A stretch of DNA of 64,000 bases, taken from positions 186,001 through 250,000 of the forward strand of contig NZ_WUQX01000003.1 of the NCBI RefSeq assembly GCF_009830285.1, written 5' to 3'. Of the stretch, positions 45,701 through 62,599 are shown in pieces (the stretch's first letter is position 1; every line of letters begins with the position of its first letter). A model generated the notes under the pieces. It saw only the letters and a program-made list of their open reading frames with translations, was not told the origin of the DNA and did not search any database. Source of the DNA: Sporofaciens musculi. Lineage in GTDB: Bacteria > Bacillota > Clostridia > Lachnospirales > Lachnospiraceae. Position numbers and translations under genes: made by a program.

Positions 45701-47440
45701 ATGAACGAAACAACAAATCTATTTATTATGCTTGGACTTATCGAGGATAAACCAGATAAATCCAATGAAAGTCAAGAAGATAAGGATTGCATGAATTACT
45801 TGTCAGAAGGGGAAAGAATATTATCATTAGCAAGGGAGAAAAAAGAACGGGTCATTTTTAAAACTCATAACCTAACGGTTAGGTTGTGCGATTTAAAATA
45901 TCCCCGGCTTGATGTGGAAGAATATAAAGCCAAGCAGCAAATACAAAGTGCTATAGAAAGAGAAATCAAAAAAAATCTAAAAGAAATAAAAACGGAGGAA
46001 TGTCTAAGTAGCAAAGGCATTCCTTTTTTATTGCACTTTGTTAATAAAAACTATGGCTGCAAAATCGAATCTGCATCCAACTTATTTGAAAAAGGATTAG
46101 CCAGGGATGTCAGCCGGTCGAACATTATTTTAACAATTAAAATAAAAGACACAACATTTTATCTTCCATGCAGTCCTGGGAAACGTTTCTCTAATGGCAG
46201 CTATCATTACAAATCAAATCCTCGTCATTTCATCCATATGTACCATGCCGAAAACTTTTTTTATCCTTTGTTCGGAATAAACTGGCTTAATCAGCTGAAA
46301 ATGGATTCTTTTGACGATCCGGATATCGAAAATACCATGAAGCACCTGATTCGTGACTTGGTATCGATATTGGAAAATTATAAATGGGATATGACTGATC
46401 TGCCAAAATGGTTTTCCAGCTATCTAATCGATTGTGGTTATCAGGAGAATACAATACATAACTGTTATATCAAAGCATCCGGTTCCGAAAGCAAACCGGC
46501 AACACTCTATAAGGATTATTTCAAAAGCCATTCCGAACTGTTTAACCTACTTTCTTTTGTATATGGGGATTCCTATCTGTCTTATGATATTTTACTAAAT
46601 GTTTCCGGGAAATCTGCCATGATAGACCTGCCTTACTATTACAGAGAATACATATTCATGACATTAAGGCACTATATCGCAAACATACATGATCTTGCAG
46701 AGGAAGAAAAACATCGAAATGAACTAAAAAGGATAGTCGCACGTGCCTACCAAACCAAGAAAAATATTCCAAAGCATGTCATACATAAAATGAAATCCTC
46801 AGAATTAAACACATATTTTGGCTTTATCGAATTTGACGAAGATGTAGACCTGAATCTGGTTGATTCCATAACGGAAGAATTCAAGAAATTAAACCAGAAT
46901 ATTTTCAATGGCTATATAAGCAAAAACGTTGCTCTGCGCTTTCGGAAACTTGGGAAACACCATGCAACTGGTCTGTATTATCCCTCCATTGATACTATGG
47001 TAGTTGATTTCAGGCATCCAACATCTTTTATCCATGAATATTTTCATATGCTTGATGATATGCTCGGCGACCTGTCCATGAAATGTGAATTTGACCAGGT
47101 GGCACTGCAATACCAGCAGCTTCTGATATCTTCTGTGGAAAAAGAACGCGAGGAGGGAAAGGAAATTCTGCCAAAAAAGGGGAAATATAATCTTAACTAT
47201 TTTCTAAGAAAGTGTGAGATTTTTGCACGATGTGGAGAAATACATTTATTCCGCAATCTTCACATTGTCAGTTCCCTTCTAAAGCCCGAAGAAACCTCTT
47301 ATTTCGCTTACCCGGATGATAAAATCCTAAACAGTATGATTGGGGAATATTATACAAACTTATTAGACAGAATGAAAAATATATCTTATAAAACGGGAGA
47401 AGATGTATATGAAAAAAATCTACATTTCGCATCTGTCTGA
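45701..47440 (+). CDS. Large protein with HExxH metallopeptidase-like motif
   Basis: 579 residues with AAAGGAGG before the ATG. The only clear motif is FIHEYFHMLDDMLG near residue 450, a HExxH zinc site inside a helix. The sequence before it (TGLYYPSIDTMVVDFRHP) looks like the edge strand usual in zincins, and a possible third ligand lies in CEIFARCGEIH about 65 residues later. The first 400 residues match nothing I know. It heads an operon with an OB/HD-like protein, a delta-prime-like protein and DnaX, so its role may be in processing element proteins during replication or transfer. One parS-like palindrome lies in its coding region at 45871. Confidence 0.6.
   Translation: MNETTNLFIMLGLIEDKPDKSNESQEDKDCMNYLSEGERILSLAREKKERVIFKTHNLTVRLCDLKYPRLDVEEYKAKQQIQSAIEREIKKNLKEIKTEECLSSKGIPFLLHFVNKNYGCKIESASNLFEKGLARDVSRSNIILTIKIKDTTFYLPCSPGKRFSNGSYHYKSNPRHFIHMYHAENFFYPLFGINWLNQLKMDSFDDPDIENTMKHLIRDLVSILENYKWDMTDLPKWFSSYLIDCGYQENTIHNCYIKASGSESKPATLYKDYFKSHSELFNLLSFVYGDSYLSYDILLNVSGKSAMIDLPYYYREYIFMTLRHYIANIHDLAEEEKHRNELKRIVARAYQTKKNIPKHVIHKMKSSELNTYFGFIEFDEDVDLNLVDSITEEFKKLNQNIFNGYISKNVALRFRKLGKHHATGLYYPSIDTMVVDFRHPTSFIHEYFHMLDDMLGDLSMKCEFDQVALQYQQLLISSVEKEREEGKEILPKKGKYNLNYFLRKCEIFARCGEIHLFRNLHIVSSLLKPEETSYFAYPDDKILNSMIGEYYTNLLDRMKNISYKTGEDVYEKNLHFASV
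45871..45883. repeat. parS-like 13-bp palindrome, copy 7 (inside a gene)
   Basis: CCTAACGGTTAGG read as codons for LTVR within the HExxH protein gene. Confidence 0.65.
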
Positions 47441-48422
47441 ACATCTGGAAGAAGAACTGGAAGAAGAGTTTTATCTAAAAGAAATTGCCTTAAGCTATAC
47501 AGAAGGAAATGGAATCCCATATCTGTTCCTGAAACTCCAGGATAAAACCGGCGTTATCTACGGACGGATATGGGAAAATAATATAGACGAGAGATACCTT
47601 CATTTTAAAGGCAAAGTCATCAAAATATGGGGCGAGGTGCTAAAAAACTACAAGAACCAGTTAGAGTTCACAATTCAAAAAATAAGCCCTGTAACCGAGT
47701 ATTCGCTCAGCAGCTTTATTGACGGTTTAAATGAGCTGGAAAAAGAACATTATTTAAACCTGCTGGATAAACAGAGCAGTTTAGTCTCACATGCCCCCTT
47801 CCGGGAACTATTAAATCTGGTATTGAAAGGTCAAAAAAACAGGCTGGCTGAAACTCCTGCCGGCCTGACCTGTTCGGGCGCATATAACGGCGCCCTGCTC
47901 GTCCAGACTGTATCTGTCACAAGCATTGCAATCCAGATTATACGTTCGCAAAAGATGTACGCATACCATCCGGACCTCAAGATTCCATATCAGGAGGACT
48001 TGCTAATCACTGGCTCCCTTCTGTTCGGCATCGGAATTACAAACCTTTATACGCCTTTTCCTGAAGCGGAAAAAGTCAGTGAGTATGCGCTGCTCCCTAA
48101 AGATATCCTAAGCATACAGATCATTGAATCATATATAAAAGAAATGAAACACCATATTTCGACAGAAGATAAAAATCTTCTTTATAATGTGATCCAAACA
48201 GCTTATAAAAAGGAAAGATGGAAGGCTATGAACCGGGAAGCATTAATATTGAACCTTGCATACACATCTTATTTGCAGATCAGTAGTATGGAATTTTATA
48301 TGACAGAAAACCAACAGAAAAGTGGGGCAGTATACGTTTCAAAACTCAATAACTATTTATATTTGTCTAAAACGAAGCTACAAGGAGGAATTGGAAATGC
48401 ACCAACATCTATACATAAATAG
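47409..48422 (+). CDS. OB-fold plus degenerate HD-domain protein (YhaM-like, probably non-catalytic)
   Basis: 337 residues from the ATG at 47409 (GGGAG nine bases upstream). An OB-like segment (YLFLKLQDKTGVIYGRIWEN, then VIKIWGEVLKNYKNQLEFTI) comes first, followed by a helical domain that aligns in outline with the HD domain of YhaM-type exoribonucleases. The metal ligands appear lost: GALLVQTVSVTSIA stands where GGLLEHTLSVA is usual, and DLLITGSLLFGIG where a LLHDIGK motif is usual. It may therefore bind nucleic acid without cleaving it. It overlaps the delta-prime-like gene by 26 bases. A structural role in the clamp-loader operon is possible. Confidence 0.6.
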   Translation: MKKIYISHLSEHLEEELEEEFYLKEIALSYTEGNGIPYLFLKLQDKTGVIYGRIWENNIDERYLHFKGKVIKIWGEVLKNYKNQLEFTIQKISPVTEYSLSSFIDGLNELEKEHYLNLLDKQSSLVSHAPFRELLNLVLKGQKNRLAETPAGLTCSGAYNGALLVQTVSVTSIAIQIIRSQKMYAYHPDLKIPYQEDLLITGSLLFGIGITNLYTPFPEAEKVSEYALLPKDILSIQIIESYIKEMKHHISTEDKNLLYNVIQTAYKKERWKAMNREALILNLAYTSYLQISSMEFYMTENQQKSGAVYVSKLNNYLYLSKTKLQGGIGNAPTSIHK

Positions 48423-49305
48423 AGATACAATGGACGAGATTGAAAATTATCTCTCATTGACCGAACCGCCGGGTATTATACTACAGGGTATTCCAGGGCT
48501 TGGGCAAGAGCTTGCGGCAAGATATATAGCTGCAAAGCTTCTAAAGTGCCAGGAGTCAGACTTAGAAAAAAATCCCGACTATTACCAGACAACCCAATCG
48601 GCCCTGAAAGTAGATGATATTGAACAGCTTCTCGAAGCGAGCCGCCGTAACAGTATTGGAGATGTAAAAGTATTTATTCTTTTTTGTGCCCATACTGTAT
48701 CGAGGACAGCACAAAACCGTCTTTTAAAACTATTAGAAGACAGAGCTTCAAGTAATAAGCTGATTATTGTCTCGGAAAAAGACAGCCTGCTCGATACCAT
48801 CAAAAGCCGCTGTTATTCTGTCCTTTTTCACCCGCTTAGGGAAGAAGCGATGGAAAAATATCTGAAGGAATTAAAAATTGATAAGGATTGTATCGGCTTC
48901 GTAGGTTTTTTAGCGGAAAATGCTCCTTATTCCATTACTGCATCTATGGAAGGGATAAATGAATACATGAACTGCTACAGGAGGATCCGTCAGATAACTC
49001 TCCGGGAAAATTTACTGCAATTACTTCATGTACTGAAAGAAAAAGACGATAATGAATTCTTCAAAAATCATGAAGCACATCCTGTGTGGAACATACGTAT
49101 GCTCTTATATCCTTTTTATCAGTTTTTAGCAGAATCTACCGGGAAAGTTCCCAGTAAGGGATATCCCTTCCCGGATACGTTATATACAAGATCACAAGCA
49201 TTAGAAATCATGGAATATGGACTGGAGCATTTATTCATGGCTCAACGTTCCTATACAAAAAACGATTATTTCAATCTGATACGATATATAATCCAAATAA
49301 AATAA
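48397..49305 (+). CDS. DNA polymerase III delta-prime-like protein
   Basis: 302 residues from the ATG at 48397 with AAGGAGG upstream. It has an AAA+ clamp-loader fold with a degenerate P-loop (GIPGLGQE, Lys replaced by Gln), as in delta-prime subunits that do not hydrolyse ATP. Further motifs are a sensor-1-like KVFILFCAHTVSRTAQNRLLKLLE and the SRC motif in DTIKSRCYSVLF. Canonical delta-prime zinc cysteines are not seen. Followed 13 bases later by dnaX, it should form a clamp loader with that product. Confidence 0.82.
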   Translation: MHQHLYINRDTMDEIENYLSLTEPPGIILQGIPGLGQELAARYIAAKLLKCQESDLEKNPDYYQTTQSALKVDDIEQLLEASRRNSIGDVKVFILFCAHTVSRTAQNRLLKLLEDRASSNKLIIVSEKDSLLDTIKSRCYSVLFHPLREEAMEKYLKELKIDKDCIGFVGFLAENAPYSITASMEGINEYMNCYRRIRQITLRENLLQLLHVLKEKDDNEFFKNHEAHPVWNIRMLLYPFYQFLAESTGKVPSKGYPFPDTLYTRSQALEIMEYGLEHLFMAQRSYTKNDYFNLIRYIIQIK

Positions 49306-49318
49306 AAGGAGGAATTTT

Positions 49319-50692
49319 ATGTTATACTCAACATACAGGCCGCAAACATTCAAAGAAGTAGTAGGGCAGGAAAATAATATCTTAACGCTGAAAGAACAGT
49401 GTAAAACAAAAAAATTTGATTCTGCCTATCTTTTTGCAGGCCACAGGGGAACAGGAAAGACGACCATTGCACGTATCCTTGCAAGAACAGTATGCTGTGA
49501 GGCCCCAAGTGAAAACGGTCCCTGCAATCAATGCAAAAACTGCAGGTCGATTCTGGAAGGAAAAACATTAGACTGTATTGAAATGGATGCGGCATCGCAT
49601 AACTCTATTACAGATATAAAAGAACTTATTGTATCAGCCCAGTATATGCCTACCATATTGCCGAAAAAGATATATATCATAGATGAAGTACATAATCTTT
49701 CAGCAGCTGCATTTGACGCACTCCTGAAAACAATCGAGGAACCGCCGGAACATTGTCTGTTCATACTCTGTACGACAGAAATGCATAAAATTCCTGCAAC
49801 TATACGTTCCAGATGTTCTATTTACCAGTTCCGGACTATATCAATTGATGTAATCTGCGGCAGACTATCCTCCGTTTTAACTGAAATGGGAAAACAGTAT
49901 GAGGATGATGCCATAAAGCTGATCGCAAAACAGGCTGACGGGTCTATGAGGGATGCCCTCAGTATCACAGAAAAGCTAATGATCTCCTGTGAAAAAGTAA
50001 CAGTAGAGCATGTGATGAAATCCCTTTGCCTTATGGATAGCGAGGTTGCTTTGCAGATCATGCGTTCGATTGTAAATGGTGACGGCAGGCAGGCAATCCT
50101 CTTGCTTCAGAGAATCTGCGAAGAAGGAAAAAATTTGGTGCAGCTGGTCGAACGTATACTCCAATGCTGTACGGATGGGATCGTTCTTTCTGCATCATCT
50201 GGAACTGCAGCTTTATATAATACAAAAGAATATCGGGATGCACTGTATGAAATAATTAGTTCCTGCCAAATTGAAATATTATTCTGGTATGTGGAGCAAT
50301 TCAGTATTCTTCGTGAAAAAATAAGGAACAGTCTGAATCCTTATATGGACGTCCTTGTATACCTGATAAAATGCTGCAACATAAAACTCCCTCAAAGTGA
50401 CACAGCAGTGTTGCTTCAACGAATCAGTGTTTTGGAGGAAAAAATACTCAATCATGAATGCGATTCTGTGCATAAAGAAGATTCCAACAAAATTGAATTA
50501 AACGATAACATCGTCAATGATTCCGATGACAGTTTTCATACAGGCTCAGACATGGATGAAAATCCATTTACAGTTGACACAGAAACATTTGAAAATGAGC
50601 AGGCCGGCCTGGTTCCGGCACAGGATGTGAAAGAAGATACCGATGACGGAATAGATGATTATATACTAAGCTTACTCGGAGGTCATCTTTAA
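49319..50692 (+). CDS. dnaX: DNA polymerase III gamma/tau-like clamp-loader ATPase
   Basis: 457 residues. It has a Walker A (FAGHRGTGKTTIARIL), a zinc module with four Cys (VCCEAPSENGPCNQCKNC), a Walker B IYIIDEVHNLS, sensor 1 in LFILCTTEMHKIP and the SRC motif IRSRCSIYQF. A domain III collar follows, then an acidic tail of about 90 residues ending DDYILSLLGGHL. Chromosomal DnaX of Clostridia is usually longer, so this is a short, element-borne form. AAAGGAGG precedes the ATG. Confidence 0.93.
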   Translation: MLYSTYRPQTFKEVVGQENNILTLKEQCKTKKFDSAYLFAGHRGTGKTTIARILARTVCCEAPSENGPCNQCKNCRSILEGKTLDCIEMDAASHNSITDIKELIVSAQYMPTILPKKIYIIDEVHNLSAAAFDALLKTIEEPPEHCLFILCTTEMHKIPATIRSRCSIYQFRTISIDVICGRLSSVLTEMGKQYEDDAIKLIAKQADGSMRDALSITEKLMISCEKVTVEHVMKSLCLMDSEVALQIMRSIVNGDGRQAILLLQRICEEGKNLVQLVERILQCCTDGIVLSASSGTAALYNTKEYRDALYEIISSCQIEILFWYVEQFSILREKIRNSLNPYMDVLVYLIKCCNIKLPQSDTAVLLQRISVLEEKILNHECDSVHKEDSNKIELNDNIVNDSDDSFHTGSDMDENPFTVDTETFENEQAGLVPAQDVKEDTDDGIDDYILSLLGGHL

Positions 50693-51472
50693 CTCTGCTA
50701 ATCTTCCTGCTGTATGGTATGATTATAGCTATATATTTTCCCAGACAGGTTACTACAAATGGAAATATAAGAATGCGAAGAGAAAACATTTCTTAATTTG
50801 CAACAATTCTGGAATGCTGTGAAAGAACGTCTGATTCCTATTCTTTTAAGACAAATCTGTATCCTGTATACGTGATCGCAGCAAAATATATAGATGTCTG
50901 TGGGTTGTTTTTTTGTAAAATCGAATATATACGTTAAGTAGTTCAGAATACCTCATCTATGATTATGGGATTATGGGGTATTCTGAAAATAAACTATAAT
51001 TTAATGTAAAAACATGTTATACTAAAATCGTTCTATGAATCTGATAAAATTATTCTGTGGATATATGTATGGGGAGGGGAGTAAAACCTTATATAAATAT
51101 ATTTATCATAATATAATTCATATATAGTTATATATATAATTGATAAATGCTGAATATGAAAAACCCCGTATTTACAAGGGAAAATGGAATTATAGACGGG
51201 AGAGAAACTTCCAGTGAGGATGAAAGTATGCCTCTGTGGAAGATTTTTTTATAATGTAGATGAAAATTTTCGCAGAAGAATGATATTTTTCACTTGTGGA
51301 TGAAAATTTTCCATTTTGTTCCCATAACAATAGATATGGATGAATCGCAAAATAGTTTTTATAGGGTAAGGAAAAGTTATCCTTTCAAAAATGGAATAGA
51401 TTTATTGATTTTCCGGCTAAAAGAAGGGGAATCACTGGCTGGAAATAAAAAAGGGCACAACAAAAAGACCCA
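50693..51472. other. AT-rich spacer between dnaX and a convergent replication gene
   Basis: 780 bases without a convincing gene. It holds a very AT-rich stretch (51090-51160), several DnaA-box-like TGTGGAT elements and four direct repeats at exactly 40-base spacing (listed separately). It may be a second origin, a regulatory site or a site bound by the nearby replication protein. Confidence 0.5.
51216..51351 (+). repeat. Four direct repeats with exact 40-bp period
   Basis: Units start at 51216, 51256, 51296 and 51336. The two central ones read GTAGATGAAAATTTTC and GTGGATGAAAATTTTC; the outer two (GAGGATGAAAGTATGC and ATGGATGAATCGC) are more diverged. The 40-base period is near four helical turns, putting all units on one face of DNA. 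Confidence 0.65.
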
Positions 51473-52717
51473 TTATGCCGTCTGGAATAATGAAGATTCC
51501 TGCCGGTTATTCTTATCGTGGAGAATGGTCCGTATAAGGGCGCCTATGCTTGTGACTTTAAACTGTGAGTTATAATTTTCATAAACATAACCGATACAGT
51601 TTTTGACTGCATCAAATGTATATGTAGTGCAGAGAACCCCTAAGTCCTTATATTCCTTTGCGGATAAGTGGAAAGGAACAAATAAGGATTTATCCAGCTT
51701 TGTCAGAGTTTTGGTCAGAATTCCCTCCTGGGCCAAAAAGGATGCGTCAGCCTCGTCGGGCCGGATTTTTGTAAGGATACTCTGGTTTATACAGTCCATT
51801 GCTTTATCGAGGCTGGAAATGTAATCTTTTATAAGGGAAGTATTCTGTGCAACATTCTTATCATAATTCCTGCGGCCATGGCAGAGGGGATTCATTTTTA
51901 AATGGATATGTTCTTCGTCACCGTCAAAAGCGACCGAAAAAAGCTCCGAAACAGAAGATAAAGCATGCCGTATGATTCCTGGCTTACAGTAGTTAGGAAG
52001 AAAACGGCGCAGGAAATCATAATCCTGCGTGACAGTCAGTTCTTTTTCCGGATTACGGTTCGTATCAATATCTAAAGCAGCGCGCAGAAAAATCCGGAGC
52101 TGGTTCAGGTCTGTAATCTGAATCAGCTTCTCCAGACATTCATAATTAAATGTGGCATATCCCCGGCCGCCTTTATCAGCAGGAAGAGAATATGTTTCAT
52201 ATTCGGTCAGGATGACCTGGATCCTTTTTTTAGAAAGTCCATCAGATGAACACATAATATATCCATATTCCTGCAATACAGAATTAGCATTTTTAACGGA
52301 ACGGACGGTGCAATCAAGCATGCCGGCCAGCTCTCTGGGGGAAAGGCCGCGAACTAAGCCATGCTCATCAGGACTGGCAAAATGATAGATGAGCAGCAGC
52401 TTTAAGGCTATGGATTTTAACCTTTTGGCATTTCCAAAGATATTTTTCTCGTTTACGCTTTTACACGTTTCATGTACAACTGTTTTGTAAACGGCACAGG
52501 GGCAGTTCTTACAACGGTTCTTGGCTTCTTTCTGAATCTCCTCCGGCATAAACTCATAAAAATCAATGTTCTTGTAATTATCGCACGCAAAACAGCCAGA
52601 CGCTGCATAATCCAGTTCCTGGCTTTCTGTATATATGACTTCTTTATGGTTTTTCTGAATTCCGATTGCTTTGATAAAAGGAGCTTTACCAATCCGTGCA
52701 TATTTTGATAATTCCAA
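51473..52717 (-). CDS. Putative replication or regulatory protein with zinc cluster and winged helix
   Basis: About 414 residues. I prefer a TTG start at 52717 with GAGGTGA upstream; a GTG at 52726 would sit on that site. A Cys cluster near residues 40-80 (GCFACDN and CKNCPCAVY) suggests zinc binding. A helix-turn-helix follows (LSPRELAGMLDCTVRSVKNA, then LQEYGYI). The rest is helical, without a recognised enzyme motif. The gene sits between the 40-base repeats and the iteron region, pointing to a role in initiation or its control. Confidence 0.6.
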   Translation of the reverse strand: MELSKYARIGKAPFIKAIGIQKNHKEVIYTESQELDYAASGCFACDNYKNIDFYEFMPEEIQKEAKNRCKNCPCAVYKTVVHETCKSVNEKNIFGNAKRLKSIALKLLLIYHFASPDEHGLVRGLSPRELAGMLDCTVRSVKNANSVLQEYGYIMCSSDGLSKKRIQVILTEYETYSLPADKGGRGYATFNYECLEKLIQITDLNQLRIFLRAALDIDTNRNPEKELTVTQDYDFLRRFLPNYCKPGIIRHALSSVSELFSVAFDGDEEHIHLKMNPLCHGRRNYDKNVAQNTSLIKDYISSLDKAMDCINQSILTKIRPDEADASFLAQEGILTKTLTKLDKSLFVPFHLSAKEYKDLGVLCTTYTFDAVKNCIGYVYENYNSQFKVTSIGALIRTILHDKNNRQESSLFQTA

Positions 52718-52960
52718 GCTAATCACCTCATGTCAGAATATTGATTCAGGACAAACAATAAAAATATGTGACTGTACCACAAAAACACCCAATATTGACT
52801 GATTCGGCAATAATACTTGAAAATAGAGAAAGAATAGTCTATAATATTAATGCAGTATCAGCCATTGGTCAATAGCAGTATATATGATTGATCTCTGATT
52901 GATATTGTAGTAGTAGCTAAACCGCCAAGAAAAGCTACTGTAAGTATATTTTATATTCGA

Positions 52961-53007
52961 TGTGAATAACTTTTTTGAAACCGCCAAATTTCACAAAGTT
53001 ATTCACA
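52961..53007. promoter_or_regulatory. Inverted pair of DnaA boxes at the edge of the origin
   Basis: TGTGAATAACTTT (52961-52973) and AAAGTTATTCACA (52995-53007) are perfect inverted repeats and each contains a TTATTCACA DnaA box. A third near-box TTATCAACA lies at 53013-53021. A T-run follows, so it could also fold as a terminator. Confidence 0.7.
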
Positions 53008-53073
53008 TTTTTTTATCAACATTCTAAATATACTACATATTTTGGGATTTGTAAAATCAAAAAGTCGCACCCG

Positions 53074-54060
53074 AAAAAGCGGACTAAATTGAAAAAACTA
53101 TGTGTTTAAAGGGGATTTTAAATATATTTTTTCTGCAAATTTATGATACAAGAAAATGGGAAAATGCGGAAAAGCCTTGATTTTACGGGGTTTTTAGGAT
53201 TCGGGACTTTTTAGAAAAAAAGTGAAAAAATTTTTATAAAAATGAGCCATTTTTTATGGACTAAATTGGGAAATCATGATAGATTATAAAAAAGAAGCCG
53301 TAAAAAACGGACTGAATAGAAGATTTTAACAGGAATCAGGGCTGAGTTCTCAAATTTTCCTCAAAAGATCTGTATTGGGGGAAAGATATATTTTTTGGGG
53401 GAAATCATACAATGAAAAAAGTGTACCCTTTAAAACGGACTGAATAAAAAAATCAGAAAAAATACACCCAAAATAACAGACTGAATAAATTTGAAAGAAA
53501 AAAGTACCCTTAAAAAGCGGACTAAATGAAAAAAAAATAGAAAAAAACACCTAAAAAAGCGGACTAAATTCATTTTTTGTGGGGTGAATCGTGGGAAAGA
53601 TAGCGACAAAATTAATGGATCTGCTATCTGAAACAAAAAGATAGCGACAAAATCAGTTTATCTGGTACAGAATGATAAAGATAGCGACAAAATTAAAATT
53701 TGTATTTAAATTGCGGCAGTTATTGTGATATCCGGTGCAGATGGCGGCAGCCTTCCGTGAAAAAGAACACCTGAAAAAGCGGACTAAATGGGGGAACGAG
53801 AACGGAATGGATAGAAAAAATGAGCTTGAAAAAGTGGACTAAATAAAGGGGCAGGGATACAGATTCATGAAAAATGCACCCGGATTAGTGGACTAAATAG
53901 AAACCGGGAATGTGTACAGACTGAAAAAATGTGCCGTAAAAAGCGGACTAAAAGTAAGTTTGGTATAAAGAGTAGCAGAAAAACATACCCTCAAAAACGG
54001 ACTAAATGATGAATCGGAGCATATAGAGATAAAAAGTGCACCCAAAAAAGCGGACTAAAT
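53074..54060 (+). repeat. Origin iterons, family A (about 13 copies)
   Basis: Consensus GTRCACCC, a few bases, then AAAAAGCGGACTAAAT. The GGACTAAAT core (or a variant) starts at 53081, 53258, 53309, 53437, 53478, 53519, 53561, 53781, 53836, 53890, 53945, 53999 and 54052. Two clusters are regular: 41, 41 and 42 bases, then 55, 54, 55, 54 and 53 bases. Irregular or variant copies are those at 53258, 53309, 53437 and 53478. Typical of an iteron-type plasmid origin with the initiator gene alongside. Confidence 0.88.
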
Positions 54061-54168
54061 GATAAAAATGAGGGGTATATCAGCAAAAGATAACGACAAA
54101 ATCGAGATATGCGGTATAGGTGATGGAAGATGGAGACAAAGTTCCGGATTGAGATAGCGACAAAGTTT
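53599..54168 (+). repeat. Origin iterons, family B (about 6 copies)
   Basis: GATAGCGACAAAAT cores at 53599, 53640 and 53680 (41- and 40-base spacing), and variants at 54089, 54129 and 54153. They interleave with family A and lie next to the gene at 54193-55851. A second initiator or a copy-control protein may bind them. Confidence 0.8.
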
Positions 54169-54192
54169 TAAGGGCAAGAAACCGCAGAAAGC

Positions 54193-55851
54193 TTAATCTG
54201 CTCCTGCGGTTTTTGTGATATCGACACATTCTACATCAATAATCTTTGAAGGATCATCAAGCGCTTTTGTATTAAACTCATAAGCAATCAGTTCTTTGGA
54301 GTCCAGTGGGAGGAACTGGATTGTAACAGCAGAGTTTTTATTGATAAACTCAAAATCTTTAATTACAATCTGCTCTGATTTCAATATGGACATATGGTTT
54401 GTCAGCTCTTTGACCAGGGCAGCGTTTCCGATTTTCTGAAGTTTCATGTGAAGGCGGAAATAATTCAGCGGAAGGGTCTTGGTATAGGAGTTCTTTGCAT
54501 ATTCCGTAAGGCGCTCCTGTTGAAGGATCATCATGATGCCCTTTGTCTGCGGAGAGTCAACACTTTTATAGGAGTCTGTTAAAATATTGATGTACTTTTT
54601 CTGGACATAGGTGCGGATCCACTGCTCAGAAGGGGTGTATTGGAAATAATTCTCCTGGAAGTTGATGTACAGGTAATTCAGCAATCCAAGGGATGTTGTT
54701 TCAATAAGTTCACCGGTCTCCCGGCTCCGCACAGTAATCGTATAATCATAGTTTTTCAGTTTTTCCAGCCGGTTTCCAATGTCTTCATAGTGTTTTTTCT
54801 TTGGAACCCGGATATTGAAAACCCTTCTTGTAAATTCCCTTAAATCAACCCGGATGTGCTGGGTTGAAAGCGTTTCTCCATTGATCAGATTAAAGAGCTG
54901 CGTCATAATCTCGCGGTCTTTCATATCCAGTTCCCGCTGTTTCAGGTTAATCTGGAACTCTTTCATAATCTTAGAGAGATTTTTTTCCGTGACTGTACTT
55001 GGAAGATTCACGTCCGGATTATATTTTACCGTAATGTCGCCTTCTATCCCCTTGTCTTCGTCCTTATAGCTGTACTGGTTGAAAAAGGTAAGTTCATTTT
55101 CTAACAGTTGCGGCTCGAAATCCATTACCGTGCTTCGGAACGAGAATAGTGGATGCTCGTTGAATTCGGTGGGGTATTTTGTATTAAAGCCTTCAATCGA
55201 TCCGCCAAAGGCATCCTTTATAATTAGAAGGGACTCGAAGGTGATGTCATTGATGAAAGCGTTGGCCAGAGTCTTGGTCGGCTTCTGGGCCGTAAAAGAA
55301 AAATCTGTAATAGGAGCGGTCGTATCGGAACGCCAGTTGTCAATTTCATTGTACTTGTCGAGCATGATCTCCTCAATGGTCCGGTCATCATCCTGTGAAC
55401 GGTCCATATTATTGATTAATGACGTGGATTCCGCATATTTTCTCAATAACCGGGGATTTTTTGGCCTCATTTTCTCTGGAGGCCCCATTTCTTCCTTGAT
55501 ACTGTTGAACCAGTTCCTTTTATATACGCGCCGGTTCTCGCGGTAGGTACGAATCGACTGCTCAATATTTTCCTTGGAAAGTGCAATATATGTACAGACG
55601 GTGATAATATCCTCCAGTGATACGGACTTTCTGCGGGAATCTTTTTTGTCCTGGGAAGAAGGCTCCGTATCTGATGCCCTGGATAAAGGTTTTGTGGTTT
55701 TGATGTAGTTTTCATCTATATATAACTCTGGCTTTTTACCCCTGATATACTTCTCATAAGTGGCAATCAGGTTTTTGTGGATATTTGGCTGGATGAATAA
55801 TGCTATCTTTTCATATTTCTCATATTGGTTGCTATCTATCATATCTGACAT
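54193..55851 (-). CDS. Putative replication initiator of the iteron origin
   Basis: 552 residues from the ATG at 55851 with GGAGGTG six bases upstream. Largely helical and charged, it shows no recognised catalytic motif. Segments such as QRELDMKDREIMTQLFNLIN and RKVFN-like basic patches (TRRVFNIRVPKKKHYEDIG) suit winged-helix initiators. It ends 12 bases from the last iteron region, and iterons lie downstream of its stop rather than at its promoter, so autoregulation by iteron binding is not obvious. The assignment rests on location. Confidence 0.6.
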   Translation of the reverse strand: MSDMIDSNQYEKYEKIALFIQPNIHKNLIATYEKYIRGKKPELYIDENYIKTTKPLSRASDTEPSSQDKKDSRRKSVSLEDIITVCTYIALSKENIEQSIRTYRENRRVYKRNWFNSIKEEMGPPEKMRPKNPRLLRKYAESTSLINNMDRSQDDDRTIEEIMLDKYNEIDNWRSDTTAPITDFSFTAQKPTKTLANAFINDITFESLLIIKDAFGGSIEGFNTKYPTEFNEHPLFSFRSTVMDFEPQLLENELTFFNQYSYKDEDKGIEGDITVKYNPDVNLPSTVTEKNLSKIMKEFQINLKQRELDMKDREIMTQLFNLINGETLSTQHIRVDLREFTRRVFNIRVPKKKHYEDIGNRLEKLKNYDYTITVRSRETGELIETTSLGLLNYLYINFQENYFQYTPSEQWIRTYVQKKYINILTDSYKSVDSPQTKGIMMILQQERLTEYAKNSYTKTLPLNYFRLHMKLQKIGNAALVKELTNHMSILKSEQIVIKDFEFINKNSAVTIQFLPLDSKELIAYEFNTKALDDPSKIIDVECVDITKTAGAD

Positions 55852-55888
55852 CTTATTCACCTCCGTAACAGCAAGCGTCTATTTTCTT

Positions 55889-55917
55889 ATTATATTATAA
55901 AGGGAAAAAATATGCAA
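55889..55917 (-). promoter_or_regulatory. Promoter of the putative initiator gene
   Basis: On the minus strand TTGCAT (55917-55912) and TATAAT (55894-55889) are 17 bases apart, about 40 bases before the start codon. Confidence 0.65.
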
Positions 55918-56020
55918 ACTTTTCCGACAGCAGCTATCAGTATGGAACAAATAAATCAGATGTGCCTGGTTGTAAGAAGAGAGGAGTTACTGTAAAATGG
56001 ATAACTAGGGAGGTGGATAT

Positions 56021-56221
56021 ATGGAGAGCCATATGTATCGGGGGAATATCAGACCGGGAAGCCGGGTAAAAATCATTTTAAAGAAGGATCAGAAATCAGG
56101 TAAGCTGACAGAGGGGTACGTGGACAGGATACTTACTAACCGACCGGTTCATACCAGAGGTATCAAGGTCATGTTAAAGGATGGGCAGGTAGGCAGGGTA
56201 CAGCAGATACTGGAGCCGTGA
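56021..56221 (+). CDS. ywbE: YwbE-family small protein
   Basis: 66 residues with GGGAGG seven bases before the ATG. The sequence VKIILKKDQKSGKLTEGYVD, then TNRPVHTRGIKVMLKDGQVG matches the YwbE (DUF2196) family over its whole length. Function is unknown; a KOW/OB-like nucleic-acid binding fold is plausible. It is usually a chromosomal gene, so its place beside the plasmid-type origin is unusual. Confidence 0.9.
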   Translation: MESHMYRGNIRPGSRVKIILKKDQKSGKLTEGYVDRILTNRPVHTRGIKVMLKDGQVGRVQQILEP

Positions 56222-56386
56222 AACAATGACAAAGAGAATCTAAAGAGAATCTAAACGGAAAAAAGAATTGCGGTTTCAGGGAAAGAATGGTAAACTAGAA
56301 CAAACCTGATTTGTTTTATTCCGAAATCTTTAGATTTGGAAAGATGGGGGAATTCCTGGAAACAGGTCTATGCATACAGAGTAAAA

Positions 56387-56410
56387 GGGCACCTTGCGGG
56401 GTGCTTTTTT
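56387..56410 (+). terminator. Leader terminator upstream of the methyltransferase gene
   Basis: GCACC/GGTGC stem (extended by G-T and A-T pairs) with a six-base loop and TTTTTT, about 48 bases before the start codon. Confidence 0.7.
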
Positions 56411-56457
56411 GTTACCCGTTTTGCGGTCAGGAAATCATATAAAAGGAGGATATTTTT

Positions 56458-57537
56458 ATGGAGCAACATGTAAAGAAACAGAATTCATTTTTTCAGACAA
56501 GAATGAATCAGGCAAAGCTTGGGGCGTATTATACAGACCCGGCACACTGCCAATGGATTGCCGGGCTTTTGGATTTCCCAGAAAATGAGGAAGTCTGCGG
56601 CCTGGAGCCCGCTATCGGTGACGGAAACGCGATTATTACGGTCATGGGGCGCAGAAACAACGAAAACATACATATTTTCGGGGTAGAGTTAAATGAGGCC
56701 ACAGCAGATATGGCAATCAATCATCCATTGATTGATGAATGTATCTACGGTAATTTTTTGACAGATGCGGTTATCACAAAAGGCGCATTTTCCTTCTGCT
56801 TTGCGAACCCGCCCTATGGGGAAGAAGACGGGGAGAGGCTGGAATGGAGATTTTTCAACAAAATCGTACCATGCCTAAGAGAACAGGCTATCTTTGTTTT
56901 TGTCATTCCTTATTATGTAATGGCCGAGCCTATGTTTTTAAAGGCATGGCACACGAATTTTATCACGGAATGCTGCTACCGTTTTCATGAACAAGAGTAT
57001 AAAAAGTGGAAGCAGGTAGTCCTGATTGGAAGGAAAGCAGAAAAGCGGCCAATAGATGGGGAGCAGCTGGCAAAGATAAAAAAGGATATCGACTCTCCGG
57101 AGAAAATCCCGCTTTTGCCGAAAGGGTATGACGGAAAGAAAATAAGAGTGCTGCCATCTAAGAAAAAAGATATAGCGGAATTTAAAAACAAGGAATTCAA
57201 TGCCGAGCGTGCAAAGAGATGTCTGGGAAAGAGTGCGCTTAATGATCTGGTGAAAGAGAAGATAACACAGCAGAAATTTATTGCGGATAACCTGAGCAGG
57301 CCCCCGATCATGCCAAATGCAGGACAGATGTATCTGATGGCAATATCCGGCGCCGGGCAGGGGCTTGTGGGTTCGGAAGCGTCCAGTGACCTGCATCTGC
57401 AGAGAGGAATGGTTACAAATGTAGAGGAAAGTGAGATGCGGATGGACGAGAATGGCAGAATGGTAGAGGCAGTTCAGCGATTTTCCAAGGTTGGCTTCCA
57501 GATTATTGAAAATAGTGGAATGATACGCAGATTGTAG
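56458..57537 (+). CDS. N6-adenine DNA methyltransferase-like protein
   Basis: 359 residues with AAAGGAGG upstream. The N-terminus MNQAKLGAYYTDPAHCQWIA, motif I in GLEPAIGDGNAI and motif IV FANPPYGEE identify an N6-adenine methyltransferase fold of the DUF6094 kind. The C-terminal 150 residues are less conserved. No restriction enzyme is next to it. With the following helicase gene it could be an element maintenance or anti-restriction function; the target site is unknown. Confidence 0.85.
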   Translation: MEQHVKKQNSFFQTRMNQAKLGAYYTDPAHCQWIAGLLDFPENEEVCGLEPAIGDGNAIITVMGRRNNENIHIFGVELNEATADMAINHPLIDECIYGNFLTDAVITKGAFSFCFANPPYGEEDGERLEWRFFNKIVPCLREQAIFVFVIPYYVMAEPMFLKAWHTNFITECCYRFHEQEYKKWKQVVLIGRKAEKRPIDGEQLAKIKKDIDSPEKIPLLPKGYDGKKIRVLPSKKKDIAEFKNKEFNAERAKRCLGKSALNDLVKEKITQQKFIADNLSRPPIMPNAGQMYLMAISGAGQGLVGSEASSDLHLQRGMVTNVEESEMRMDENGRMVEAVQRFSKVGFQIIENSGMIRRL

Positions 57538-57541
57538 GGAG

Positions 57542-57566
57542 AACAGGCAGGAGCCTGTTTTTTTTT
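57542..57566 (+). terminator. Leader terminator upstream of the helicase gene
   Basis: A seven-base-pair stem AACAGGC/GCCTGTT, four-base loop and a nine-T run, directly before the ribosome binding site of the helicase gene. Confidence 0.8.
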
Positions 57567-57584
57567 AACGAGGAGGAAAAGAAT

Positions 57585-60500
57585 TTGCATGTAACAGCAG
57601 GGAATATAATTACCCATCTATATTATGCAGTAGCGGCGGACGGCAGACTGCTGATCTTGTCAAACTTTAATGAAGATTTTATGTCTGTGGCGGGTTTATG
57701 TGCCAATATCGGCTTAGGGACGGAATCTGTTGCAATCATAGAGAATGGGAAGTATATAGAGACATTTCCGCCGGCAGCGGAGGTGGATAACTATCAAGTA
57801 AAGATACAAAACGGACGCGAGTGTCTGTATCAGGGTGTGAGCCTGTCAAGACTTATCAGTAGAGAATACCTTTTTATTGAGAAAAAGAACTGGGAAGAGC
57901 AGTTGTATGCCTATCTGATGAACCAGTTTGAATTTCCAATCCTGCGCCGCTGGATCCCGTATGTGACAGAGGAAGCCATGGCAAAAAAGCTTTTACACAT
58001 ATCGGAGATGAAGGTGATCGGGGAAACAGGGCTGTTTGACGGGTATGAAATCTGGCATTCAGAAATGACAAATGAAGCGCTTCTTTCCATTCTGCAGGCG
58101 GGTCTGTCAGATAAAAAGATCCATATTTCAGAACAGGAGCAGCGGCCACTGGATTTCTCAGATATGGACGATTATTTTAACAAATACGGGCATACGCTGG
58201 TTGATAACCTGGAAAGACTGCTGAAGCCATTGACATCGATGAAGGATAAAGTGGAAGAGCTTACGTTTATCGGCAAGAGTTTATACCCACAGCAGGCGGC
58301 TGTCGTGAACGGCGCGGTTGAATGTCTGAAAAAAAAGAAATATGCATTTCTCATTGAAAGCATGGGAGCAGGCAAGACCCTTCAGGGGCTGGGGGTTGCT
58401 GAGGCTTTTTTTAACCAGGAGTATCTTAGGAAGCATTCTGAAAAGACCGTAAAGGAGGTTTATACGGACGGCAGGCTGATAAAGTTCAGGGTTATCATCA
58501 TGTGTCCGGCGCATCTGGTACATAAATGGGAGGAATTTATCTATGAAGAAAGTCCTTATGCGAAGGTAGAGATTATTGAAAAGCTGTCACAGCTGACTGC
58601 TCTCAGGAAAAAGGGGAAAACTCCGGCAGGGAAAGAGTATTATATAGTCGGGAAAGACACCGGGAAATTATCCTATGCCTATATGCCGACTCCAACCCAA
58701 ATAAAGGTTAAGAAGCCTAAAGTGCCTGTATGCAGCCATTGTGAGAAGGAGTTTCTGGCTGACCTGCGGTCATCTTGTGGGTGCGGGTGCCGTAAATGGG
58801 AACTGATGGAACAAAGAGAGGCCGTAAAGGGGATGATATGTCCGAAATGCGGTGAAATACTTCTGGCTGCAGACGGATCGGGAAGTATTGATGAGACGAC
58901 AGGTGAATACAGAGTCCTGATGCCGGAGAATTTTGCCCAGCAGAACAGTGCGAACCGTTTCTGCCGGTGCTGCGGGGAGATTCTGTGGATGCCGGCCTGT
59001 GAACCGGTTGACAACAGGATTATGTATTGGAAGCCGAAGGAAAAGCCAAAGAAATGGAAGAAAATATCACACTATGCGAACCGTGCCATGAAAGGCAGAA
59101 AATCTGTATGGGTTATGAAGGGCAGAGAAATGCTGTACAAGGAGCTCAATCAGCTTACAGACGAAGAGATAGAGGAGATGGACATCTATGGGCCAAGGCG
59201 CTTTGGACTGACACGTTATATCAAAAAGTATCTGGCCGGGTATTTTGATCTGGCGATTTTTGATGAAGTACAGTCTTACAAGGCAGGCGGGAGCGCACAG
59301 GGATATGCCATGCACGACCTGATAAAGGCAAGCAGGAAACAGCTGGCACTGACAGGAACAATAGCAGGAGGATATGCATCGGATCTTTTTTATACGCTGT
59401 TCAGGCTGGATCCTGGCAGGATGCGGGCAAAAGGCTATCGGTACAGCAGTGCGGGAGAAAGGAGGTTTGTTGAAAAATACGGAACGGTGGAAACGGTCTA
59501 TGAAATCAAGGAAGGGGGGAATTACCATTCAATGTCGCGCGGGCGGGTGATAACACCGCAGCGCTGTCTGCCGGGCATATCCGTGCTGATCTTTACAGAA
59601 TTTTTGCTGGACACGTCCTTGTTCCTGGATCTCTCAGACCTGAGCAGATATCTTCCGAAGCTATATGAAGATGTGGTCATCGTGCCTTTGGAGAGCCGGA
59701 TATATGAGGAGTATTGCCGGGTAAGGGCATGCATGAAGGAGGAAATGAAAGAGAGGAGCGGAAAACTAATTATGGGGAGTTTTCTGCAGTTTTCTCTTTC
59801 TTATACGGATATGCCGTATAACCGCGGATCGATACTTTCCCCTGCGACAGGGGAGATGATTGTAGAACCGGAAGACTTAAGCTGCCTGATAGAAGAGGGA
59901 AAGCTTCTTAATAAAGAGCAGAAGCTGAAAGAGATTGTAAGCAGGGAGCTTGGCGAAGGAAGAAATTGCTTTATCTACTGTGAGTATACCGGAGAACGGG
60001 AAAGATCCATATCCTATCGGCTAAAGAATGTTTTAGAACAAACCTGCGGCCTGTGCGGGTATGAGGTGGTTGTGATAGAAAGCGCATATCCCGCCGCAGT
60101 AAAAGGGAGGAGTGGATGCACCAGAAGGCTGCGGAAGGCGCCAGGGTGTTCATCACAAATGCGAAATGTGTTTCAACCGGACTCGATTTTGCATTTGTTT
60201 ATCAAGGAAAAAAAATATAACTATCCGACAATTATATTTTACCAGCTTGGGTATGACATGATTACAATCTGGCAGAGCAGCCGCAGGCATTACCGGCTGA
60301 ACCAGACAGAAGAATGCAGGACATACTATCTGGTTTCAGAGAGGACCATTCAGATGGATGCCGTTGAGCTGGTGGCGACGAAGGAGGTTGCGACCAGTTC
60401 CATACAGGGACATTTCTCGGCGGAAGGGCTGTACACAATGGCACGCGGGATAGACCCGCGCGTAATCCTTGCGCAGTCTGTAGCGGATAAAAGCGAAAAG

Positions 60501-60812
60501 AAAGAGCAGGGATTAAGGAAGATGATGGATGTCCTGAATGAACGGAACAACCAGGGCCGGGAAACGGCCAGCTATAAAAAGATGATGGTTTTTTCTGAAC
60601 TGACGGGTTTAAGCGAAGTCCCCGTCCTGGATGACCCGTTCGGCGAATATGAAGCAGCTACGGGACGGGACATACTGGATCTGGTTTTTGCTTTCGACAA
60701 CCATAATGCAGGGGAGCCGGAGGATATCACCCTTAAGCAGGAAGAAACAGTGGATTCAGAAGAGCCGGAGGATACAGAGCTGAAAGAACTTTTAGAGTTA
60801 TTATTTTTTTAG
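57585..60812 (+). CDS. SNF2-type helicase/ATPase with zinc ribbons, internal frame disturbance
   Basis: 1075 residues from a TTG start with AGGAGG eight bases upstream. Motif I is IESMGAGKTLQG (about residue 258), followed by a zinc-rich insert with CSHCEKEF, CGCGC, CPKCGE and CRCCGE. Motif II is FDEVQSYKA (about 557), motif III LALTGTIAGG, and motif VI QSSRRHYRLNQ (about 893). Between 60105 and 60207 the frame gives unlikely sequence, while the neighbouring frame reads KREEWMHQKAAEGARVFITN and then CVSTGLDFAFVYQG, the expected motif V. One A missing in the run at 60101-60104 and one extra in the A8 run at 60208-60215 explain this. Confidence 0.85.
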   Translation: MHVTAGNIITHLYYAVAADGRLLILSNFNEDFMSVAGLCANIGLGTESVAIIENGKYIETFPPAAEVDNYQVKIQNGRECLYQGVSLSRLISREYLFIEKKNWEEQLYAYLMNQFEFPILRRWIPYVTEEAMAKKLLHISEMKVIGETGLFDGYEIWHSEMTNEALLSILQAGLSDKKIHISEQEQRPLDFSDMDDYFNKYGHTLVDNLERLLKPLTSMKDKVEELTFIGKSLYPQQAAVVNGAVECLKKKKYAFLIESMGAGKTLQGLGVAEAFFNQEYLRKHSEKTVKEVYTDGRLIKFRVIIMCPAHLVHKWEEFIYEESPYAKVEIIEKLSQLTALRKKGKTPAGKEYYIVGKDTGKLSYAYMPTPTQIKVKKPKVPVCSHCEKEFLADLRSSCGCGCRKWELMEQREAVKGMICPKCGEILLAADGSGSIDETTGEYRVLMPENFAQQNSANRFCRCCGEILWMPACEPVDNRIMYWKPKEKPKKWKKISHYANRAMKGRKSVWVMKGREMLYKELNQLTDEEIEEMDIYGPRRFGLTRYIKKYLAGYFDLAIFDEVQSYKAGGSAQGYAMHDLIKASRKQLALTGTIAGGYASDLFYTLFRLDPGRMRAKGYRYSSAGERRFVEKYGTVETVYEIKEGGNYHSMSRGRVITPQRCLPGISVLIFTEFLLDTSLFLDLSDLSRYLPKLYEDVVIVPLESRIYEEYCRVRACMKEEMKERSGKLIMGSFLQFSLSYTDMPYNRGSILSPATGEMIVEPEDLSCLIEEGKLLNKEQKLKEIVSRELGEGRNCFIYCEYTGERERSISYRLKNVLEQTCGLCGYEVVVIESAYPAAVKGRSGCTRRLRKAPGCSSQMRNVFQPDSILHLFIKEKKYNYPTIIFYQLGYDMITIWQSSRRHYRLNQTEECRTYYLVSERTIQMDAVELVATKEVATSSIQGHFSAEGLYTMARGIDPRVILAQSVADKSEKKEQGLRKMMDVLNERNNQGRETASYKKMMVFSELTGLSEVPVLDDPFGEYEAATGRDILDLVFAFDNHNAGEPEDITLKQEETVDSEEPEDTELKELLELLFF

Positions 60813-60826
60813 GAGGATAAGATATT

Positions 60827-61996
60827 ATGTTTAAAATGAAAGTACACAGCGGGGCATTTGTAGAAACCATGAGAAAGGTATCAATCGGAATACCCGTATC
60901 AAGCCAAAAAAGTGAAAGTGACGGGGTAAAGATTGTTTTTTACAAATCGATTAAGGGAATGCCGGATATGAGCAAGGGGATCTTCCTTGCCTTTGACGGG
61001 AAGGTTCAGGCAGTGAGCTCTATGGATATCAGTAATGTAACTGCTGATGTAGAAGAAGCGGAGGTACATATCAGCGGGAAGAAAGCGCTTGCTGCTGCAA
61101 ATGCGTATGCGGCGCTGGATATGGCCCTTGAAATCGAGATTGACAAGGATGTGAAGATTTCCGCGGCAGGAAATAAAGTAACCCTCCCGCTTGGCCAGAA
61201 AATCGTGGCGTTAAAGCCGGATGGCCGGCTCCTGCAGGAAATTGAGATGCATACGGAGGATTTTATCAATTTCGTGAACTTTGCCTCCAGCTGCTATGGG
61301 GAAGAAAAAGGTAGCCGCGGTCTGCATTGCGTTGGAATCCGTATAGATCCGGAAAAGAAGGTCATGATAGGGGCAAGCAGCAACGGTACTCGCTGCGCTT
61401 ATGCAGAATCCCAGAATGTCACGTTCCGCCCGGTTAAAAATAAAGAGGAAGGGGCGGCCGACAATAAAGTCATTACTGTGGTGATAGAGGGCAAGACTTT
61501 GAGAAACGCAGTAAAGAATCTGGAGAAGAAGAAGGTGACCATAGGGATTGACGCGAAAATGCTGCGGATAAAATGCGGCAGCGATGTGGTTATGATCATG
61601 ACACAGGAGATTCCGTTTCCGATGGATGCGATACTGCAGGTGATGGACAGGACTAAGCGGGTGGGAGCGTGGAAAGCCCGGCTGACCAATGTTCTTCAGG
61701 CGCTTGCAATCTATGAAATTACAATGGAGACACCCTGGCTGGAAATTAAAAAGCAGGGGGAGACGCAGGTAATCCTGCAGGGAAAGGACGAGCAGTCAAA
61801 TGCCGCTGTAATCTGTGCACAGGATGGGGACATACAGACAGTGGCAGTAAATGAAAAAGAATTCAAGAACAGCCTGTCCGTTTTTTCAAAAGAAAAGGAT
61901 ATTATCATAGAAACGATGTCGGATAAGATGCCGATTGTGATGCGTCAGCATGAAGATGATAAGAATAAGATTTTTCTGATGCCGGTTTCAGAATAA
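60827..61996 (+). CDS. Sliding-clamp (DnaN)-like protein
   Basis: 389 residues with AGGAGG before the ATG. The length and three-part build resemble the beta clamp (about 370 residues). It has repeated segments of alternating strands with a long helix in each third (KALAAANAYAALDMALEI, then TEDFINFVNFASSC and RNAVKNLEKK). The ending PIVMRQHEDDKNKIFLMPVS is close to the usual clamp C-terminus. Overall similarity to chromosomal DnaN looks low, so it is called clamp-like. It follows the helicase gene by 14 bases. Together with DnaX and the delta-prime-like protein it suggests an element-specific clamp system. Confidence 0.72.
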   Translation: MFKMKVHSGAFVETMRKVSIGIPVSSQKSESDGVKIVFYKSIKGMPDMSKGIFLAFDGKVQAVSSMDISNVTADVEEAEVHISGKKALAAANAYAALDMALEIEIDKDVKISAAGNKVTLPLGQKIVALKPDGRLLQEIEMHTEDFINFVNFASSCYGEEKGSRGLHCVGIRIDPEKKVMIGASSNGTRCAYAESQNVTFRPVKNKEEGAADNKVITVVIEGKTLRNAVKNLEKKKVTIGIDAKMLRIKCGSDVVMIMTQEIPFPMDAILQVMDRTKRVGAWKARLTNVLQALAIYEITMETPWLEIKKQGETQVILQGKDEQSNAAVICAQDGDIQTVAVNEKEFKNSLSVFSKEKDIIIETMSDKMPIVMRQHEDDKNKIFLMPVSE

Positions 61997-62199: not shown

Positions 62200-62568
62200 T
62201 TGAAGATTTTTTGTGTAGCCGAACGACTTGCTGTCCCTGCGAGGAGGCTGGGCGTTATGGCTCTGGCTGCGTCAGCATCGGAGTGGGACTTTATGACAAG
62301 CAGTCCCGGTGAATCCGGGGTCTTTAATTCTTTGATCGCAAAGATGAAGGATATTGGGGCTTCCGGATATGAACTGATGTTGACACTGGGCATTATAGGG
62401 CTTGTTTTCTCAATCATCTTTACGGCGGTATCGCTTCTGCTTACAAGCAATGCCCAGAAGAAAGAGGAGAAAAAGAGCCATGCGTTAGTCATATGTTTAG
62501 CCGGAATTGTTATTTTTTCAGTTTTTAGCATCATCGGGTTTTTTAAGTCGATTGGCACAGGTTTATAA
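62200..62568 (+). CDS. VirB2/TrbC-like pilin-type membrane protein
   Basis: 122 residues from a TTG at 62200 (GGAGGAGG seven bases upstream). A signal peptide-like start ends in ALAASAS, followed by a polar segment and two membrane helices (LMLTLGIIGLVFSIIFTAVS and ALVICLAGIVIFSVFSIIGF). This is the usual layout of type IV secretion pilin subunits. It is the first gene of the secretion cluster that runs off the right edge. Between it and the clamp gene lie 203 bases with two TGGGAGAA repeats and no gene. Confidence 0.65.
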   Translation: MKIFCVAERLAVPARRLGVMALAASASEWDFMTSSPGESGVFNSLIAKMKDIGASGYELMLTLGIIGLVFSIIFTAVSLLLTSNAQKKEEKKSHALVICLAGIVIFSVFSIIGFFKSIGTGL

Positions 62569-62572
62569 CATG

Positions 62573-62599
62573 ACAGGACCTCCGGGTCCTGTTTTTTTT
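62573..62599 (+). terminator. Leader terminator upstream of the PrgI-like gene
   Basis: An eight-base-pair stem ACAGGACC/GGTCCTGT, four-base loop and an eight-T run, 20 bases before the start codon. Confidence 0.8.

Follow-up and report, generated by a model that had tools for sequence, protein, structure and literature searches.

Why would a plasmid bring its own sliding clamp and clamp loader, when plasmids are generally assumed to borrow those of their host? The question is raised by a stretch of 64,000 nucleotides from Sporofaciens musculi (Lachnospiraceae), positions 186,001 to 250,000 of contig NZ_WUQX01000003.1 (assembly GCF_009830285.1), here called the window. The contig, C1 below, is 287,404 bp long and is one of the 3 contigs in a genome of 5,763,728 bases; the window corresponds to C1:186001-250000. 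Around an iteron origin it carries genes for two clamp loader subunits and for a divergent DnaN-like clamp, next to genes of a conjugation system. The reading we favour, at a probability of about 0.55, is that this is a clamp and loader private to the plasmid, which act at the iteron origin together with a polymerase borrowed from the host.

The loader genes are the clearest part. A first-pass annotation of the window had described DnaX, delta-prime, clamp-like and primase-like genes, and all four are present as open frames, in the places it gave or adjacent to them (Table 1). In DnaX the expected motifs are intact: Walker A (GHRGTGKT), the Cys4 zinc module, IYIIDEVH, SRC and GSMRD. The protein is 55-58% identical to its counterpart in a related Hespellia replicon, described below, and 38% identical to the chromosomal copy. 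The C-terminal tails of the two plasmid-type proteins, ILSLL in the window and ILNLF in Hespellia, have by eye the look of a clamp-binding motif. The delta-prime-like protein has the DNA_pol3_delta2 domain and the SRC motif by which HolB is recognised, and it reaches 68.1 against an NCBIfam holB equivalog cut-off of 180.6. It had been called ATPase-dead, and its ATPase motifs are indeed lost: Walker A reads GIPGLGQE and the acidic pair of Walker B is gone. The loss of Walker A is not a trait of the family, since the Hespellia homologue (46-48% identity) retains GLPGLGKS.

Neither a delta subunit nor a polymerase had been seen by the first-pass annotation. This is true within the window, and no polymerase is recognised on C1 as a whole; however, a gene for delta is present on C1 outside the window. 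Its product scores 19.3 bits with PF06144 as a protein, below the cut-off of 21, and 21.8 bits in the genome search, and it carries a LFGDK stretch at what we take to be the usual clamp-binding place. Judged by these profile matches, the loader set on C1 is complete, with DnaX, delta-prime and delta.

The clamp is far more divergent. With a custom hidden Markov model (HMM) of 11 canonical clamps it scores 31.1 bits, the top value among 325 open reading frames (ORFs) of C1, a number that includes 33 repeats from a redundant contig end; the runner-up reaches 3.6 bits, and the maximum over 2000 shuffles is 10.5 bits. The TIGR00663 alignment spans residues 53-388. By eye, SSNGTRC is found near the canonical D-x-H-R position, and the C-terminus reads LMPVSE where canonical clamps have LPV. 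The homology that had been proposed is thus weak but real, and the assignment of the protein as a remote homologue of the DnaN clamp is supported at the sequence level. No second DnaN is found on C1 with TIGR00663, so the divergent clamp is the loader's sole recognised partner there.

Relatives of this clamp are rare. Used as a query against its own genome it matches only itself, and it occurs in 2 of 397 genomes of the family, its own included; the other is a Hespellia metagenome-assembled genome (MAG), whose homologue is 63% identical. Strict peptide-pattern scans, which may miss distant relatives, give no match in plasmids, phages and viral contigs; in genome contigs one such scan gives none and another the Hespellia contig only. 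Among further scans of viral contigs, three are without a match, one finds 2 distant DnaX and one finds 3 DnaN. Against the PDB sequences the best E-value is 0.87, and there is no match in PHROGs.

Are these genes simply the replisome of the host? Profile searches of the genome show that the chromosome encodes its own dnaX, dnaN and holA, as well as a 329-aa protein of DnaX/HolB type that we read as holB. That the window genes are the only copies in the genome, the condition under which they would just be the host replisome, is ruled out by these duplicates. Because the chromosome holds its own set, the clamp and loader genes of C1 are supported as element-borne extra copies. Two genes for the alpha subunit of DNA polymerase III (Pol III alpha), taken for DnaE and PolC, are found on contig C2 only. 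On C1 there is none by PF07733, and Pfam detects no DNA polymerase family in its 24 ORFs of at least 500 aa (orf126 and orf192 scanned in part).

The tree of DnaX, with 14 rows and 7 of 11 inner branches open, agrees with element-specific copies. The window and Hespellia proteins form a clade with 100/100 support, on a long branch and with no chromosomal copies inside. Four DnaX proteins from Bacilli plasmids form another clade (97/98), and DnaX of the Butyrivibrio proteoclasticus plasmid pCY186 joins the chromosomal copy of the window genome (98/99). A single origin of plasmid DnaX is rejected, as at least 2 changes are needed on the starred branches and 0 of 200 bootstrap trees have one change. 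However, clustering by the plasmid label does not exceed chance, since as few changes were needed in 78 of 500 label shuffles. Plasmid loaders have probably arisen more than once, as far as this small sample of sequences can tell.

The origin lies in the middle of the module. Each iteron has the layout AAAAA, then a sequence close to CACCC, and then AAAAGCGGACTAAAT or a variant of it. All 12 fall within C1:239079-240060 in a single orientation, and 3 more isolated matches are found elsewhere on C1. The iteron core is matched 11 times in the window, 9 times inside the array, against 1.2 expected, and AAAGATAGCGACAAAATT has 6 copies against 0.18 expected, 5 of them at the origin. DnaA-box-like sites are not significantly enriched in the window (5 against 2.3 expected). 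The array is located between the gene of the origin-adjacent protein and that of the putative initiator, the arrangement that marks iteron plasmids, in which a direct-repeat array adjoins the gene of the initiator; here the initiator is assigned by weak similarity only. The putative initiator has no Pfam family above cut-off, and, besides itself, two distant relatives among 392 genomes of the order, a sample in which Hespellia is seemingly not included. The loader genes are on one side of the origin, and the methyltransferase, helicase and clamp genes are on the other.

This arrangement is conserved in a second replicon. The Hespellia contig, JAQUVD010000020.1, is collinear with C1:221.4-262.9 kb, a backbone of 42 kb with delta-prime, dnaX, the origin and the clamp. 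Both repeat families are present, with 10 iterons in a single orientation, and delta-prime, DnaX and clamp are retained at 46-63% identity in identical order. The contig is 70 kb long and may be a fragment.

Further, C1 has the appearance of a conjugative plasmid. Its first 23.9 kb equal its end at 99.6%, flush with both termini, and this overlap makes it probable that the replicon is circular and measures about 263.5 kb, the assembly ends being redundant. Small differences between these ends, C1:1-23896 and C1:263514-287404, break reading frames; the redundancy is probably an assembly artefact, and it would double the genes there in an annotation. ARAGORN finds no tRNA or tmRNA genes on C1. 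Both ATPases that define conjugative plasmids, VirD4 and VirB4, are encoded. The VirB4 gene is located past the window, at C1:250344-252614, in a type IV secretion system (T4SS) run that also includes a lysozyme-like/NlpC protein; the matches of VirB4 are DUF87 proteins from T4SS clusters on plasmids, and its Pfam scores are below cut-off. The only relaxase candidate among the scanned C1 proteins is the one of the Replic_Relax family, and the MOB-suite class of 11 plasmids with a related VirB4 is non-mobilizable.

Table 1. Features of the clamp and loader module, the origin and the surrounding backbone. Positions refer to the window, except where C1 is given; scores are set against family cut-offs where available.
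Feature	Position	Strand	Evidence
DnaX, 457 aa	49319..50692	+	TIGR02397 364.2 bits, cut-off 250
Delta-prime-like loader subunit	48397..49305	+	PF13177 55.1 bits, cut-off 27
Delta (HolA)	C1:71535-72473, outside window		TIGR01128 116.2 bits, cut-off 80
Divergent DnaN-like sliding clamp, 389 aa	60827..61996	+	TIGR00663 27.8 bits, E 1.1e-6
Iteron origin	53058..54167	.	12 bipartite iterons ending GCGGACTAAAT or a close variant; 5 copies of AAAGATAGCGACAAAATT (at most 3 mismatches)
Putative replication initiator	54193..55860	-	tblastn 23% over 77%, E 3e-13, to a protein annotated as replication initiator A
Origin-adjacent protein	51473..52726	-	phrog_13905 8.1e-8 (unknown-function family); Hespellia 60%
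Gene opening the run to delta-prime/dnaX	45701..47440	+	no family above cut-off; Hespellia 45%
OB-fold YhaM-like protein, overlaps delta-prime start	47403..48422	+	NF010007 40.8 bits, cut-off 460; Hespellia 55%
DUF6094 methyltransferase-like protein	56458..57537	+	PF19587 77.8 bits
SNF2/phage-type helicase, immediately 5' of clamp gene	57585..60812	+	phrog_62 1.3e-20; PF00176 3e-4 (below cut-off); Hespellia 57-58%
Zinc and DUF3854 TOPRIM-type primase-like protein	41800..42990	+	PF12965 45.0 bits, cut-off 23; zinc and TOPRIM by eye
ParB	43030..44076	-	PF02195 23.4 bits, slightly below cut-off 26.3
ParA	44077..44925	-	PF13614 106.4 bits
Replication-relaxation family protein	36411..38135	+	PF13814 37.1 bits, cut-off 25.3
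VirD4/TraG-type coupling protein	38135..40477	+	PF10412 25.5 bits, PF12696 24.8 bits; both above cut-offs
PrgI-like protein, first of T4SS run extending beyond window	62507..62968	+	PF12666 14.8 bits, below cut-off

In the YhaM-like protein (47403-48422) the HD residues are, by eye, seemingly gone in both the C1 and the Hespellia replicon. Delta is part of a cluster at C1:63063-72473 with a PAPS-reductase-like protein, PRTRC-like B (Prok-E2_D) and A (JAB) proteins, ThiF and a UvrD-type helicase; the proteins are PRTRC-like only, as their scores fall below the curated cut-offs (A 72.1 against 101.8, B 39.5 against 131.45, ThiF 91.2 against 144.75). Two genes for DncV-like/SMODS nucleotidyltransferases in the window, at 8013-9245 (-) and 10311-11633 (-), with 34.7 and 30.9 bits, are located near an AAA_15/AAA_21 ATPase and possibly form a defence locus resembling a cyclic oligonucleotide-based antiphage signalling system. 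A 1562-aa NACHT-type NTPase (C1:99288-103976, -; PF05729 30.0 bits) has a 43% relative on the Hespellia contig, and PADLOC finds no match in its first 639 residues. Further, C1 encodes a surface protein of 2011 aa (C1:116557-122592, -; scanned as two parts) in which a thioester domain (TED_2) is combined with numerous SpaA repeats, and the window contains ThiD-like and ThiM-like thiamine salvage kinases that are plasmid-borne (26958-27767 and 29146-30072, -).

How common are such modules? The first-pass annotation took clamp and loader genes on plasmids to be unusual, and this did not hold up, as they recur on other large Bacillota plasmids. The divergent clamp of a Lysinibacillus sphaericus plasmid is matched in 11 plasmid records from six genera, its own record included, and in 10 of the 11 it is labelled hypothetical protein. 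Five of these plasmids were opened: L. sphaericus NZ_CP014857, Sporosarcina pSP10-266k, and those of L. irui, Alkalihalophilus (pBpOF4-01) and Rossellomorea. Like C1, all five have genes for DnaX, delta-prime and a divergent DnaN-like clamp upstream of a T4SS cluster with VirB4. On these five plasmids the order is dnaX, delta-prime, clamp, neighbours are separated by no more than one small gene, and delta is encoded elsewhere on each. ThiF lies upstream of dnaX on four of the plasmids; on that of Rossellomorea it was not seen. The L. irui delta-prime, annotated as hypothetical, is assigned through the window profile (4.6e-9). In pBpOF4-01, dnaX is interrupted by a group II intron gene; in the stretch of the plasmid that was opened, the maturase gene lies at 10456-12252 and an N-terminal piece of dnaX at 9296-9712 before it. 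Unlike C1, these plasmids carry canonical DnaN in five of five cases and Pol III alpha in two of five. A grouping of their divergent clamp with that of the window into one subfamily is not supported by the HMM scores.

On P. polymyxa pPPM1a and a Peribacillus plasmid the clamp adjoins the T4SS, with no dnaX in the stretch examined. Among 10 plasmid records, 7 have delta (PF06144) and 3 have Pol III alpha (PF07733); the records were chosen by dnaX, VirB4 or clamp matches, so these fractions are not frequencies. Like C1, pCY186 is a Lachnospiraceae plasmid with dnaX and replication genes, but it carries PolC, DnaB and a DnaA/Hda protein and has no match for DnaN or delta; the matched passages of its genome paper (PMC2914790) leave the replication genes untreated. 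The 131 plasmid records that bear dnaX should not be taken as 131 precedents. In those opened from C. difficile, Priestia, Monoglobus and Enterococcus the gene is surrounded as on a chromosome (by ybaB/recR, ribosomal genes or tRNA ligases), and they are therefore likely misassemblies or relocated chromosomal DNA.

In the reading we prefer, the initiator would open the iteron origin, and the plasmid loader would then place the plasmid's own clamp on primed DNA at the origin and on lagging-strand primers. Host PolC or DnaE would be recruited to this clamp, and plasmid replication would thereby be independent of the supply of host clamp and of that clamp's partners. We infer that the proteins work as one complex, that the clamp is ring-shaped, that the role is vegetative replication and that a host polymerase is used.

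Several observations weigh against this scheme. The clamp is below every curated cut-off (TIGR00663 27.8 against 137.65; PF00712 19.2 against 24.4), and the significant alignment to the canonical-clamp HMM is limited to residues 212-387. AlphaFold2 gave no usable model of the clamp, with a predicted local distance difference test score (pLDDT) of 30.9 and 31.8 from alignments of 2 and 4 sequences, and the three-domain fold is as yet unproven. A strict clamp-binding motif, searched in a single form, is absent from 45 backbone ORFs. With 457 aa, DnaX is shorter than the chromosomal copy (534 aa) and may lack the polymerase-binding part. For delta the Hespellia MAG has no relative besides the one of chromosomal type (23%), so these sequences do not place delta in the conserved module. 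Also, a fragmented polymerase, or one of unknown type, could have been overlooked on C1. Finally, because the five Bacilli plasmids also carry canonical DnaN, replication there may rely on a clamp other than the divergent one; the window clamp scores 18.3 bits with the Bacilli set against 31.1 with canonical clamps.

Part of the evidence would also fit a module for establishment, an example given in the first-pass annotation, in which the main work of clamp and loader would come after conjugation, on the incoming single strand primed by the DUF3854 protein and ahead of the host replisome. The clamp gene directly precedes the PrgI/VirB4 run in both C1 and Hespellia, it lies upstream of VirB4 in the five opened Bacilli plasmids, and the backbone holds a primase-like gene. 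However, the iteron origin too has loader and clamp genes on its two sides, and we consider establishment as the main function unlikely; vegetative replication is at least as likely a role, because the genes surround the origin as well as adjoin the conjugation genes. The order methyltransferase, helicase, clamp brings up another function, a sliding platform for these proteins and the PRTRC-like ones in DNA modification, repair or maintenance rather than a processivity factor for a polymerase. In the Sporosarcina and L. irui plasmids the clamp gene is followed by one for a DEAD/DEAH helicase, as it is in pBpOF4-01 with an intron gene in between; the L. irui protein is weakly related to the helicase of the window (3.5e-7). 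The canonical DnaN on the five Bacilli plasmids fits a platform as well, but on C1 the divergent clamp is the only partner recognised for the loader, and we find this explanation somewhat less probable still than establishment.

That replisome parts are duplicated relative to the chromosome could also mean that the plasmid, by way of its ring or loader, titrates polymerase or clamp of the host and slows it. There is no sign of inhibition, the genes are located within the replication backbone, and such competition seems very improbable. We give equally little credit to the idea that the genes were captured from a host chromosome and are now ordinary paralogues or remnants in decay, with no special role. 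It would account for the strong divergence of clamp and delta-prime and for the lost ATPase motifs of the latter, and the position of pCY186 DnaX in the tree indicates that captures may happen. However, the catalytic motifs of DnaX are intact, the frames are open, and the three genes are kept in order in the second replicon.

A private clamp and loader used with a host polymerase can be compared with two known systems. The clamp of phage T4 is gp45 and its loader is gp44/62. Phage systems such as T4 resemble C1 in that a mobile element has its own clamp and loader. According to the matched passages of PMC7544198, however, T4 supplies a polymerase too, and the type of its clamp and loader is archaeal/eukaryotic, while the C1 proteins are of bacterial DnaX/DnaN type with no polymerase recognised. 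Plasmid RK2, as far as the matched passages of PMC4980987 go, is like C1 in having an iteron origin and in loading a clamp there, but it uses the clamp and loader of the host. Its TrfA protein binds the host clamp, which shows that recruiting a clamp is a genuine step at an iteron origin, and one open to possible takeover by a plasmid. Phage clamps and loaders, as in the T4 passages cited, and a plasmid with a fuller replisome, pCY186, are thus already known. No description of a clamp and loader without a polymerase on a plasmid was found among the matches listed from the open-access literature, and within these the combination on conjugative-type iteron plasmids is undescribed, as is the recurring Bacilli arrangement of dnaX, delta-prime and divergent clamp ahead of VirB4.

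We put forward only tentatively, and with less confidence than the reading of C1 itself, that large conjugative-type plasmids of Bacillota recurrently carry a private clamp and a complete loader, some without a polymerase, with at least two origins of the module, in Lachnospiraceae and in Bacilli. It would then be an orthogonal processivity channel, in which the initiator and loader of the plasmid supply borrowed host polymerases with a private ring and thereby uncouple plasmid from chromosome replication. If this is true, such plasmids would represent a natural orthogonal replisome, which brings clamp and loader yet borrows the polymerase. It would bear on what limits the host range and the establishment of large plasmids, and the specificity between clamps and polymerases would become testable in pairs.

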